This document shows, piece after piece, positions 35,827 to 39,235 of a stretch of 64,000 nt of DNA (position 1 is the first letter of the stretch; each line of letters starts with the position of its first letter). The notes beneath the pieces are model-generated. The model did no database searches. It saw only the letters and a list, made by a program, of their open reading frames with translations, and was not told where the DNA came from. Source of the DNA: Thermococcus celer Vu 13 = JCM 8558 (GTDB taxonomy: Archaea > Methanobacteriota_B > Thermococci > Thermococcales > Thermococcaceae). The translations under genes and the position numbers were made by a program. The stretch is from the NCBI RefSeq assembly GCF_002214365.1, contig NZ_CP014854.1:1661092-1725091 (forward strand). The letters run 5' to 3'.

Positions 35827-36774
35827 ATGGTGGTTAGTCTGGCCGGAAGGGACGTTCTCTGCCTTCAGGACTTCACGAGGGAGGAGATAGAGACCGTTCT
35901 CAAGACCGCCGAGATTATGAAGATATGGAAGAAGATAGGAAAGCCGCACCGCCTCCTCGAGGGTAAGACCCTTGCGATGATATTCCAGAAGCCTTCGACG
36001 AGGACGAGGGTCTCCTTCGAGGTGGGCATCTACCAGCTCGGCGGCTACGGCCTCTACCTCAACGCCCAGGACCTTCAGCTGAGGAGGGGCGAAACGATAG
36101 CCGACACCGCGAGGGTTCTGAGCAGGTACGTGGACGGGATCATGGCGAGGGTCTACGCTCACAAGGACGTTGAGGACCTGGCGAAGTACGCCAGCGTTCC
36201 GGTCATCAACGGCCTGAGCGACTTCAGCCACCCGTGCCAGGCCTTAGCGGACTACCAGACCATACTCGAGAAGAAGGGCAGGATAGCGGGCCTCAAGGTG
36301 GTCTACGTCGGTGACGGAAACAACGTGGCTCATTCGCTCATGATAGCCGGAACCAAGCTCGGGGCGGACGTTGTCGTTGCGACACCCGAGGGCTACGAGC
36401 CGGATCAAAAGGTCATCAGGTGGGCAGAGCAGAACGCGGCCGAGAGCGGTGGAAGCTTTGAGCTCCTGCACGACCCGGTCAAGGCAGTCAAGGACGCCGA
36501 CGTTATCTACACCGACGTCTGGGCCTCTATGGGGCAGGAGGCTGAGGCCGAGGAGAGGAGGAAGGTATTCCTGCCATTCCAGGTCAACAGGGAGCTCGTC
36601 AAGCACGCCAAGCCGGACTACATCTTCATGCACTGCCTCCCCGCTCACAGGGGCGAGGAGGTAACGGACGACGTCGTCGACTCCCCGAACAGCGTCGTCT
36701 TCGACGAGGCCGAGAACCGCCTGCACGCCCAGAAGGCGGTGATGGCCCTCACCATGGGCGGGATAAAAGTCTGA
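35827..36774 (+). CDS. argF: Ornithine carbamoyltransferase
   Basis: 315 residues from ATG 35827 (GGTGATTC just before). Carbamoyl-phosphate loop FQKPSTRTR (about 53-61), FSHPCQALAD (about 130), the ornithine loop region YTDVWASMGQE, and the carbamoyl/ornithine motif HCLPAHRGEE near 270 are all intact. Makes citrulline from ornithine and carbamoyl phosphate. Closely resembles the well-studied Pyrococcus enzyme. TTATTAAAA at about 35788-35797 is a plausible TATA box. A pyrimidine-rich run follows the stop. Confidence 0.96.
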   Translation: MVVSLAGRDVLCLQDFTREEIETVLKTAEIMKIWKKIGKPHRLLEGKTLAMIFQKPSTRTRVSFEVGIYQLGGYGLYLNAQDLQLRRGETIADTARVLSRYVDGIMARVYAHKDVEDLAKYASVPVINGLSDFSHPCQALADYQTILEKKGRIAGLKVVYVGDGNNVAHSLMIAGTKLGADVVVATPEGYEPDQKVIRWAEQNAAESGGSFELLHDPVKAVKDADVIYTDVWASMGQEAEAEERRKVFLPFQVNRELVKHAKPDYIFMHCLPAHRGEEVTDDVVDSPNSVVFDEAENRLHAQKAVMALTMGGIKV

Positions 36775-36822
36775 CTCCGCCTTTTCTCATTTCTATTGGT
36801 GCCTGGTAAGGGATGTCTCAAC

Positions 36823-38145
36823 CTATCGCACGAGGTCCTCAAGGTCGCGCAGGTCCAGCATGTTCTCGCCCTTTCCCTCAATTCTCCGGGCAACGAGTAG
36901 ATACCTTTTATTGCCCTCAAAGCCCTCCGCCTTCCGTTTAAGTTCTCCGAGCACTTTCTCCGCTTCCTTTCTTTTCAAGTCTTTCCACTTAACCTCGACG
37001 AAGAGGAGACCATCCTCGAGTTCAAGAATAGCGTCGATTTCCTGTCCCCTGTGCCACCACCTCGCGACCCTCCTCTGGCCGAAGTTGAGGAGCTTTCGGC
37101 GGAGCATATCCCTCACGAGCCTCTCAAAGGCCTGTCCGTAGTAGGCGTTCAGCTCGCGTTCAATCCTCAACCAGACCTCATCGACCAGTCCGAGCTCAAG
37201 GTCGCCCCGGTTCGGGTAGATGAAGCGGAACCAGAAGTTGAAGAAGTTGTCCCTTATGTAGTAGCGTCCCCTCTTCCGCCTGCCGTAGGAAAGTTCGTAA
37301 CCCACCAGACCGAGCCTCTCGAGCGTTTCAAGGTACCTTGAGAGATTACCCCTGTCGATCCCCGTGAAGTTAACCAGCTCCCCCAGGGACTCGTAGCCGA
37401 GGGAGAGGCCTTTGAGTATCAGCTTGTACCTCTTCGGCTCCCTGAGCTCCTCTCTGAGGAGAAACTCCGGCTCCTCGTAGAGGACTTCCCCCTTCCTCAG
37501 GACCCTCTCCCTTATCGCATCCTCGACGCTCAGTCCCCTGATGAGGTCGAGGTAGAAGGGAATCCCACCGAAGACGGCGTAGACCTTCACGAGCTCTTCC
37601 ATGTTCAGATTCGGGAGCATCCTCCGCATTGCTTTGATGTCAAAGGGCCCTACCTTCCACTGCCCCGTCCTCCTCCCGTAGAGAGGGCTTCTGTACTCGA
37701 GAGTCTTCTCCATCATTCCGATTGAGGAACCGCAGAGCACGAGGAAAGCCCGGGTGTTGCGAAGATGCTCATCCCATACCTTCTGGATGATGCTCAGGAT
37801 TCCCGGTTCCAGACCCATCAAATACTGGAATTCATCGATAACGATGGCCACCCTTTCGTTCCTTATCTCTTCGGCAAGGTAGATAAAGAGCCTTCCGAAA
37901 TCCTTGACTTCCCGGAAGTACCCCTTCCCCGTGAGTTTTGAGAATTTTTCGGCGAGTCCTTTAACGTTCTCCGCCATGGAATCTGCGGTGGCGAGAAAAT
38001 AGACGCCCTTCTTATCCCTCAGGAACTCTCTCAAGAGCATGGTTTTGCCAACTCTCCTTCGCCCATAGACGATTATCAGCTGGGCTCGCTCTTCTCTCCA
38101 CTTCCTCTCGAGGAATTCAAGCTCCCTCTCCCTATCCACGAACAT
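36823..38145 (-). CDS. Archaeal DUF234-type ATPase with winged helix and nuclease-like domain
   Basis: 440 residues. The N-terminal ATPase has Walker A YGRRRVGKT (about 23-31) and Walker B VAIVIDEFQYL. A winged-helix segment follows (LGELVNFTGIDRGNLSRYLETLERLGLVG). The C-terminal DUF234 domain carries a PD-(D/E)xK pattern, EIDAILE...LFVEVKW (about 365-385). These proteins are abundant in Thermococcales and are poorly characterised; nuclease or mobile-element links have been proposed. Start at ATG 38145 with GGTGGTGCC before it. A palindrome flanks its TATA region, suggesting self-regulation. Confidence 0.88.
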   Translation of the reverse strand: MFVDRERELEFLERKWREERAQLIIVYGRRRVGKTMLLREFLRDKKGVYFLATADSMAENVKGLAEKFSKLTGKGYFREVKDFGRLFIYLAEEIRNERVAIVIDEFQYLMGLEPGILSIIQKVWDEHLRNTRAFLVLCGSSIGMMEKTLEYRSPLYGRRTGQWKVGPFDIKAMRRMLPNLNMEELVKVYAVFGGIPFYLDLIRGLSVEDAIRERVLRKGEVLYEEPEFLLREELREPKRYKLILKGLSLGYESLGELVNFTGIDRGNLSRYLETLERLGLVGYELSYGRRKRGRYYIRDNFFNFWFRFIYPNRGDLELGLVDEVWLRIERELNAYYGQAFERLVRDMLRRKLLNFGQRRVARWWHRGQEIDAILELEDGLLFVEVKWKDLKRKEAEKVLGELKRKAEGFEGNKRYLLVARRIEGKGENMLDLRDLEDLVR

Positions 38146-38158
38146 GGCACCACCATTA

Positions 38159-38199
38159 AAATGCTGTAACCAAAGTATAATAATCTTTCTACAGCATTT
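38159..38199 (-). promoter_or_regulatory. Palindromic operator/promoter of the DUF234 ATPase gene
   Basis: Perfect 10-base arms AAATGCTGTA (38159-38168) and TACAGCATTT (38190-38199) flank a 21-base spacer. On the minus strand the spacer holds ATTATTATA, a TATA-like box 30-40 bases before the ATG. The arms thus enclose the core promoter, a layout typical of an autorepressor; the ATPase itself has a winged helix. Confidence 0.5.
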
Positions 38200-38305
38200 C
38201 ATCCCACACATCGGGCTCAAAGTATGTAAATGGAGAACGGTTTTTGTGATTCAGTGTGCCCGTCAGAACGGCGAACCTTTTAAACTCCCCTGCCAACCCA
38301 AAACC

Positions 38306-39235
38306 ATGCTTGAGAGACTCTTCAGCCTCGGCTACTCCAGAACCTTCGCAGAGCGCTACTACGAGCTCTGGGGCGAGAGGGCGTTGAGGATAGCCGAGGC
38401 CATGGAAAGGCCACTGCCGAGATGCTTCCGTGTGAACACCCTCAGGATAACGCTCCAGGAGCTAACCAAGCTCCTCAACAGGAAGGGTTTCCAGTTCAAG
38501 CGAGTTCCGTGGGCGAGGGAGGGCTTCTGTCTCACGAGGGAGCCGTTCTCGATAACATCAACGCCCGAGTATCTAAGCGGCCTGCTCTACATCCAGGAGG
38601 CCAGCTCCATGTACCCCCCCGTTGCCCTCGAGCCGAAGCCCGGGGAGGTGATAGCGGACATGGCGGCCGCCCCGGGAGGAAAGACGAGCTACCTCGCCCA
38701 GCTGATGGAGAATAAGGGCCTTATCTACGCCTTCGACGTTGGGGAGGAGAGGTTGAAGGAGACCCGCTTAAACCTCTCCCGCCTCGGCGTGATCAACACC
38801 GTCCTGATTCACGGTTCGGCCCTTCACATAGACGAGCTCGGTGTGGAGTTCGATGGGATACTCCTCGATGCACCCTGCACAGGGAGCGGGACGATACACA
38901 AGAACCCTGAGAGGAAGGCCAACCGAACGATGGAGGACGTTAAGTTCTGCCAGGGCCTTCAGATGAAGCTCCTCGAGAAGGGGCTTGAGGTTCTCAAAAA
39001 AGGCGGAACGCTCGTTTACTCCACCTGTTCCCTCGAGCCGGAGGAGAACGAGTTCGTGATCCAGTGGGTCCTCGATAACTTCGACGTCGAGCTCCTGCCC
39101 CTGCGGTACGGAGAGCCGGCCTTAAGGAAGCCCTTCGGCGTCGAACTGAGCGAGGAGATAGAAAAGGCGAGGCGCTTTTACCCGGACAAACACGGTACGA
39201 GCGGTTTCTTCGTCGCGAAGCTGAGGAAGCTTTAA
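38306..39235 (+). CDS. NOL1/NOP2/Sun family RNA m5C methyltransferase
   Basis: 309 residues from ATG 38306. The SAM site is MAAAPGGKTSYLAQLM (about 115-130). Both catalytic cysteines are present: the nucleophile motif STCSLEPEENE near 237 and DAPCTGSG near 192. Forms C5-methylcytosine in tRNA or rRNA. Size and sequence resemble the Pyrococcus Trm4/NSUN6-type enzyme, so tRNA is the likelier substrate. An N-terminal PUA domain is absent; residues 1-90 form the RNA-binding N1 domain. Its stop overlaps the next convergent gene by 4 bases. Confidence 0.93.
   Translation: MLERLFSLGYSRTFAERYYELWGERALRIAEAMERPLPRCFRVNTLRITLQELTKLLNRKGFQFKRVPWAREGFCLTREPFSITSTPEYLSGLLYIQEASSMYPPVALEPKPGEVIADMAAAPGGKTSYLAQLMENKGLIYAFDVGEERLKETRLNLSRLGVINTVLIHGSALHIDELGVEFDGILLDAPCTGSGTIHKNPERKANRTMEDVKFCQGLQMKLLEKGLEVLKKGGTLVYSTCSLEPEENEFVIQWVLDNFDVELLPLRYGEPALRKPFGVELSEEIEKARRFYPDKHGTSGFFVAKLRKL

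Follow-up and report, generated by a model that had tools for sequence, protein, structure and literature searches.

A promoter palindrome of a DUF234 ATPase gene in Thermococcus celer, probably a self-repression operator with letters private to its subfamily

The ATPase gene and its promoter palindrome

The window, by which we mean the whole analyzed stretch of 64,000 nucleotides of the Thermococcus celer genome, carries on its minus strand a DUF234 ATPase gene that is flanked by argF and an RsmB/F-type methyltransferase gene and preceded by a pair of inverted arms. The features of the locus are the following (positions are those of the window).

36823-38145, minus strand: DUF234 ATPase gene, 440 amino acids, start codon at 38145 (open reading frame, domains, PDC-S27 profile)
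36952-37233, minus strand: DUF234 domain, residues 305-398, within a predicted PD-(D/E)XK nuclease-like fold (PF03008, conservation, fold)
37255-37437, minus strand: predicted winged-helix domain, about residues 237-297 (profile matches and model)
37549-38142, minus strand: ATPase_2 (STAND-like NTPase) domain, residues 2-199 (PF01637; fold matches 2QEN and 2FNA)
38149-38154, minus strand: ribosome-binding-like GGTGGT in the leader (sequence; retained by most subfamily members)
38159-38168: gene-proximal outer arm, reading TACAGCATTT on the minus strand (ACAnCATTT-like in 18 of 18 subfamily members)
38174-38184, minus strand: inner dyad ATTAT-T-ATACT, axis at 38179 (inner half-site layout common to the subfamilies)
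38190-38199: distal outer arm, reading AAATGCTGTA on the minus strand (sequence and subfamily conservation)
38278-38284, plus strand: TATA-like TTTTAAA of the divergent methyltransferase gene at 38306-39235 (sequence; outside the dyad, at a distance of about 80 bases)

The arms AAATGCTGTA (38159-38168) and TACAGCATTT (38190-38199) are exact reverse complements around a 21-base spacer, just as an earlier note on this DNA had described them, and the spacer, which reads GAAAGATTATTATACTTTGGT on the minus strand, does contain the TATA-like element that the note had placed there (ATTATTATA, 38184-38176). This element coincides with the dyad axis and, judged by its letters, would act as the TATA element of the ATPase gene (a sigma-70 promoter scan is not informative for an archaeal promoter). 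Read along the minus strand, the order is AAATGCTGTA, GAAAGATTATTATACTTTGGT, TACAGCATTT, a leader with GGTGGT, and ATG. The arm pair with a gap of 15 to 27 bases has a single occurrence in the window, is absent from all of 100 shuffles, and is found at just one place in the whole 1,866,819-base T. celer genome, where a single arm occurs at four places, two of them being the window dyad and the other two distant. When dyads are scored as the number of paired offsets out of 20 in the best dyad between positions -75 and +30, the region of the window dyad reaches 15, a score attained by 2 of 368 control genes taken from 20 Thermococcaceae stretches.

The gene neighborhood was compared with that of related loci. 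argF and the methyltransferase gene adjoin without an ATPase in three of them (L297, L305, and L308), and in four others the place after argF holds another kind of ATPase (L298, L299, L303, and L304). Because the methyltransferase gene has a TATA-like element of its own and no such dyad is seen at the methyltransferase gene of L305, the dyad belongs to the ATPase gene. Across L296-L309, the place that corresponds to window positions 36775-38305 is empty or occupied by other DUF234 ATPases and looks like a recurrent insertion place. A separate observation is that the ATPase-less loci L297, L308, and L309 carry repeated TGAAA...TTTCATAAA palindromes between argF and the methyltransferase gene.

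Domains and predicted fold of the ATPase

The window ATPase combines ATPase_2 (PF01637, 112.7 bits against a cut-off of 33.2) and DUF234 (PF03008, 94.5 bits against a cut-off of 22.5) in a single protein, and PADLOC assigns it to PDC-S27 with a profile that spans most of its length (6.6e-47 over residues 2 to 411). Its AlphaFold2 model is confident (pLDDT 96.1, pTM 0.91) and places an NTPase core, which we take to be of the STAND type, ahead of a winged helix, of which the model shows the helices and the wing and which HTH_5 and HTH_IclR match weakly at residues 243 to 282. The NTPase and winged-helix core aligns with 2QEN (Z 23.4, rmsd 3.0, 292 aligned residues) and 2FNA (Z 21.5, rmsd 3.2, 287 aligned residues), with the cores of plant NLRs and CED-4 ranking lower (Z 15 to 17).

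For the C-terminal domain modeled alone (pLDDT 95.6), VIA-align comparisons, taken as a second look only, gave Cdn1 (Z 9.3, 121 aligned, rmsd 5.2), AF1548 (Z 9.2, 99 aligned, rmsd 2.6), and 2VLD (Z 9.1, 105 aligned, rmsd 4.1), and Foldseek returned no match reaching E 0.001 for this domain. D371 is invariant and E384 and K386 are nearly invariant among 50 sequences. Modeled fold and conserved D and E-x-K residues together point to the PD-(D/E)XK superfamily, with a putative nuclease activity. The predicted architecture of NTPase, winged helix, and nuclease-like domain agrees with the winged helix and PD-(D/E)XK-type domain read from the sequence in the earlier note.

The available excerpt of PMC12988326 presents PDC-S27 as a phage-defense candidate in which an ATPase is fused to a PD-(D/E)XK member, with 3,503 occurrences in Archaea and 4,562 in Bacteria, and states that most PDCs lack experiments. 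By profile and by this description, the window ATPase belongs to the same family, and by that assignment the DUF234 ATPases are candidate antiviral proteins. The same excerpt is silent on promoters and self-regulation.

Conservation of the dyad in the window's subfamily

A search of whole genomes detected relatives of the ATPase in 59 of the 61 that belong to the genus of the window and in 31 of the 33 from elsewhere in the family Thermococcaceae. The 160 best-scoring loci among the matches listed (30 + 100 + 30) yielded 164 gene records, 161 of them at least 370 amino acids long and 158 of these with enough upstream DNA, with start codons chosen by script. At a 57% identity cut, the 161 full-length genes form nine subfamilies and one singleton.

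The window's subfamily, c4, comprises 18 sequences including the window ATPase, and all 18 have the dyad upstream, with the axis 34 to 37 bases before the start codon and 13 to 17 of 20 offsets paired. The operator-like dyad over the promoter that the earlier note postulated is thus retained throughout the subfamily, and each member has what is expected of a self-repressor, a conserved dyad over its own promoter. Some members are near-identical, so that the 18 sequences hold 14 distinct operators. Among members with less than 90% protein identity, the 41-base dyad is on average 79% identical, as against 25%, i.e., random, for the 41 bases next upstream of it and the 41 bases beyond it. At offset 12, the distinct operators carry T-A (9/14) or C-G (5/14) and none is unpaired. 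The gene-proximal arm of the window is ACAGCATTT, where most relatives have ACATCATTT, which makes the window's arms perfect; in L009 it is the distal arm that instead matches ACATCATTT. Across genera, the type of dyad goes with its subfamily.

Window-type sites are nearly restricted to genes of this subfamily and their remnants. When at most one mismatch is allowed, the core pattern matches one place in each of 15 genomes out of 94; 14 of these places are at a subfamily gene (10 intact) or a remnant (4), and the one remaining site (L050) looks like chance. No further gene under a window-type operator was found by this core-pattern scan of 94 genomes, a strict pattern that would miss weaker sites. 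The outer-arm pattern ATGMTGT-N23-ACAKCAT likewise has one match in each of 15 of the 94 genomes, and 11 of these matches belong to DUF234 genes or their remnants; those in G062, G034, G083, and G090 have no inner core and are chance-like, although the pattern read backwards has no match in the 94 genomes.

The remnants are of two kinds. L037 (G002) and L049 (G059) are truncated or decayed c4 starts that retain the dyad. L042 (G020) and L046 (G040), compared with L005, show deletion scars in which the gene-proximal arm is fused to the last ATPase codons; the dyad survives and is followed by a repeat-rich open reading frame.

A common layout with different letters in each subfamily

The best dyad has at least 14 paired offsets in 92 of the 158 genes but in 4 of the 368 controls, and 6 of 790 shuffles reach this score. 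Each of the nine subfamilies has a dyad of its own, placed at the promoter or at the start codon; examples are TTTACTnnnnAGTAAATTACTGGTGAGTAAA in c0, GAGTATTATACTC followed by ATGAGTA in c1, TACTCnnnAGTATGATACTCatGAGTA in c2, AGTTAT...AGTATnATACC...ATAACT in c3, TTATCCT...AAGATTATCTTGGTGAAGATAA in c5, GTTGCA...GATTAGTCTAATC...TGCAAC in c6, and a GATATTaAATATC core in c8. The axis coincides with the TATA-like element in the window's c4 and is nearer the start codon in most other subfamilies, with the gene-proximal outer arm falling inside the first codons in c3 and c6. Weak cases with a poor fit to the layout are c1 (0/25 at 14 or more) and c7 (2/11), the axis of the latter lying between bases. 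Within subfamilies, the dyad is 79 to 93% identical, against 25 to 45% for the DNA beyond it. A single genome can hold many of these types, as in G024 (seven subfamilies, seven dyads) and G010 (five subfamilies, five dyads).

Aligned by their axes, the operators have a common layout of inner half-sites at offsets 1 to 5, a non-palindromic gap, and outer half-sites at about offsets 11 to 19. Mean pairing over ten groups is 0.79 to 1.0 at offsets 1 to 5, 0.32 to 0.42 at offsets 6 to 8, and 0.71 to 0.97 at offsets 12 to 16. Nine consensus operators, those of eight subfamilies and the singleton (c7 was omitted because its base-centered dyad is poor), have 131 of 180 cells paired. In 5,000 draws of nine control promoters, with every promoter placed on its own best axis, the count averaged 89.5 and never exceeded 105. 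Layout contrast was 0.63 for the operators and at most 0.39 for the control promoters. When the right-hand letters are dealt among the consensuses, at most 104 cells are paired with 19 extra pair types, against the observed 131 and 23, which implies that the letters changed together on both sides between subfamilies; the axis in this dealing test was picked to maximize pairing, so that the controls taken each at its best axis are the fair null. Within subfamilies, clean double changes appear at one offset of one subfamily only.

These comparisons divide a further proposal of the earlier note, that aligned upstream regions of DUF234 genes would reveal the same arms as a hallmark of the family. 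The layout is family-wide and the sequence is subfamily-specific: exact TACAGCATTT arms are limited to c4 and one relative from a Desulfurococcales metagenome-assembled genome (MAG), other subfamilies having other arms, and we reject them as a family-wide hallmark.

Relatives beyond the Thermococci and a neighboring family

We kept 80 of 114 further relatives, 79 of which could be scored (L226 is without upstream DNA), leaving 65 non-Thermococcal genes after removal of 14 Thermococci loci and L226. A score of at least 15 of 20 is reached by 17 of the 65, compared to 0.36% of 2,810 AT-matched windows from the same loci and 0.69% of shuffles, and 42 of the 65 score below 14. Relatives of 62 to 74% identity are found in MAGs of other phyla. 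The Desulfurococcales MAG relative (L207, protein 62% identical) carries AAATGCTGTAGATAAATTATTATATTTTATCTACAGCATTT with the window's own arms, an Archaeoglobaceae relative (L210) has a c0/c2-like dyad, and the operator of L209 (Archaeoglobus) is nearly that of L201 and L203 from Thermococci; MAG bins such as that of L209 may be mis-assigned. Bacterial examples include Hydrogenothermaceae genes (L236, L242, and L246, and with changes L239) in which TTCGTTTTTA...TAAAAACGAA flank a TATAAT-like core, an Omnitrophota gene (L217, 19/20), and a Sulfurovum gene (L276, 18/20). Every plasmid relative has less than 60% identity. A group of mostly Methanosarcinaceae and Methanoperedens genes (L247-L270) shows a conserved element of the ACTGAACAGTATGTTACT-nT-ATGGTAGG type across the start codon, with letters akin to c0 and a low dyad score.

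DUF4143 ATPases served as a neighboring family (30 loci, one yielding no gene), and 3 of 29 score 14 or more. This control is not clean, because start codons are uncertain and one subgroup (L318-L320, L326, L328, L330-L332, L337, L340, and L343) has a common imperfect dyad around GAGGGAAACTTTTTAAGGATTTTTACCTC, with L343 itself at 15/20. Since that subgroup may have a dyad, the trait may extend outside DUF234.

Proposed self-repression and alternative explanations

We consider the palindrome to be probably an operator, with letters private to the subfamily, at which the DUF234 ATPase represses the gene that encodes it. Dimers of the ATPase, or a dimer of dimers, would read the four half-sites, inner and outer pairs around one axis, and the winged helix is the proposed reader. 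As the c4 axis lies on the TATA-like element, bound ATPase would exclude TBP/TFB, and as the operator letters changed per subfamily while the layout was kept, paralogs in the same cell should not silence each other. Expression would be kept low because the product is a potentially toxic, nuclease-bearing, immune-type NTPase, a guess from the PDC-S27 assignment. The earlier note had suggested that the ATPase might bind the site itself; the comparative sequence evidence favors such self-binding, and from it we infer binding and repression.

That the dyads are instead operators of other, host-encoded regulators of the ATPase genes is unlikely. Operators of separate regulators are common at defense genes, and the recognition helices, which have no simple match to the operator letters, follow no obvious rule that would predict them. 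This explanation would, however, need one regulator per subfamily, up to the seven dyads of the seven subfamilies in G024, and such regulators would have to account for a dyad type that accompanies its subfamily across genera, into MAGs of other phyla, and into bacteria, as well as for window-type sites that lie at no other gene bar the one chance-like match. For a reader that would have to accompany the gene into hosts whose promoter machinery differs, the gene product is the simplest candidate.

We regard it as improbable that the dyad serves a mobile unit in insertion or homing, as the place where it recombines or is cleaved by the nuclease-like DUF234 domain. Mobility would fit the different subfamilies that occupy the same place beside argF, the relatives of 62 to 74% identity in MAGs of other phyla, and deletion scars that start at the edge of the dyad. 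Against it, no second copy of the dyad, as in a transposon-like terminal inverted repeat, is present at the 3' end of the gene or elsewhere in the genome, and a role in the promoter better explains an axis at the promoter or start codon at a subfamily-typical distance, with an arm sometimes in coding sequence. Those arms in the first codons (c3, c6, and others) would also suit a stem in RNA that controls translation, which we hold to be very improbable: the TATA-like element of c4 lies between the arms, so that the distal arm should not be transcribed, and Rfam has no match within 36700-38500. Short inverted repeats do arise by chance in A+T-rich promoters, an explanation that we practically dismiss in view of a dyad that all 18 subfamily members keep between random flanking sequences and of the statistics on shuffles, control genes, control promoters, and non-Thermococcal genes.

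Self-repression by the ATPase can be extended, tentatively and with considerable doubt, to the suggestion that, in archaea and bacteria alike, DUF234/PDC-S27 proteins are self-silencing immune receptors, each on a private four-half-site operator at its own promoter until infection releases, arms, and induces it. Operator binding would then both repress the gene and keep the protein inactive. Release could be triggered by a ligand, by nucleotide exchange, or by foreign DNA that titrates the protein, and it would at once arm the nuclease and raise expression. Paralogs would diversify operator and reader together, giving many receptors per cell without cross-talk.

Relation to known systems and significance

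Self-repression via a palindrome is an old theme. Self-regulated toxin-antitoxin systems and the C proteins of restriction-modification systems keep defense-type genes low through palindromic operators in their own promoters. In those systems a small separate protein, the antitoxin or the C protein, reads the operator, whereas the reader proposed here is a large NTPase with a nuclease-like domain. SSO1545 (2FNA) and PABY2304 (2QEN) have an NTPase and winged-helix core like that of the window ATPase, in chains of 350 to 352 residues that align to model residues 1 to 308 only and leave the DUF234 part uncovered. Mycobacterial IniR is likewise an ATPase with a predicted SSO1545-like domain, but it has a C-terminal DNA-binding domain, activates another operon, and is without a nuclease-like domain, and the available excerpt of its description mentions no dyad (PMC5760070). 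The plant NLR Rx1, with a related nucleotide-binding core that has been linked to SSO1545, also binds DNA; it is described as distorting DNA after pathogen perception rather than reading a dyad in its own promoter (PMC4599002).

The best-ranked open-access literature, with most subscription journals outside it, yielded no report of self-regulation or promoter palindromes for DUF234/PDC-S27, and no tested function of these proteins was found in this analysis (PMC10133366 contains DUF2341 and not DUF234). Nor did that literature describe a layout shared by archaea and some bacteria in which every paralogous subfamily of an NLR-like NTPase with a nuclease-like domain has private letters. Such a layout offers a testable first function for DUF234/PDC-S27, that of a DNA reader and self-repressor, and release from the operator would be a route to the activating signal. 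The subfamilies and their dyads also form a natural candidate set of orthogonal repressor-operator pairs, many of them derived from hyperthermophiles, and they bear on how NLR-like NTPases may use DNA binding.
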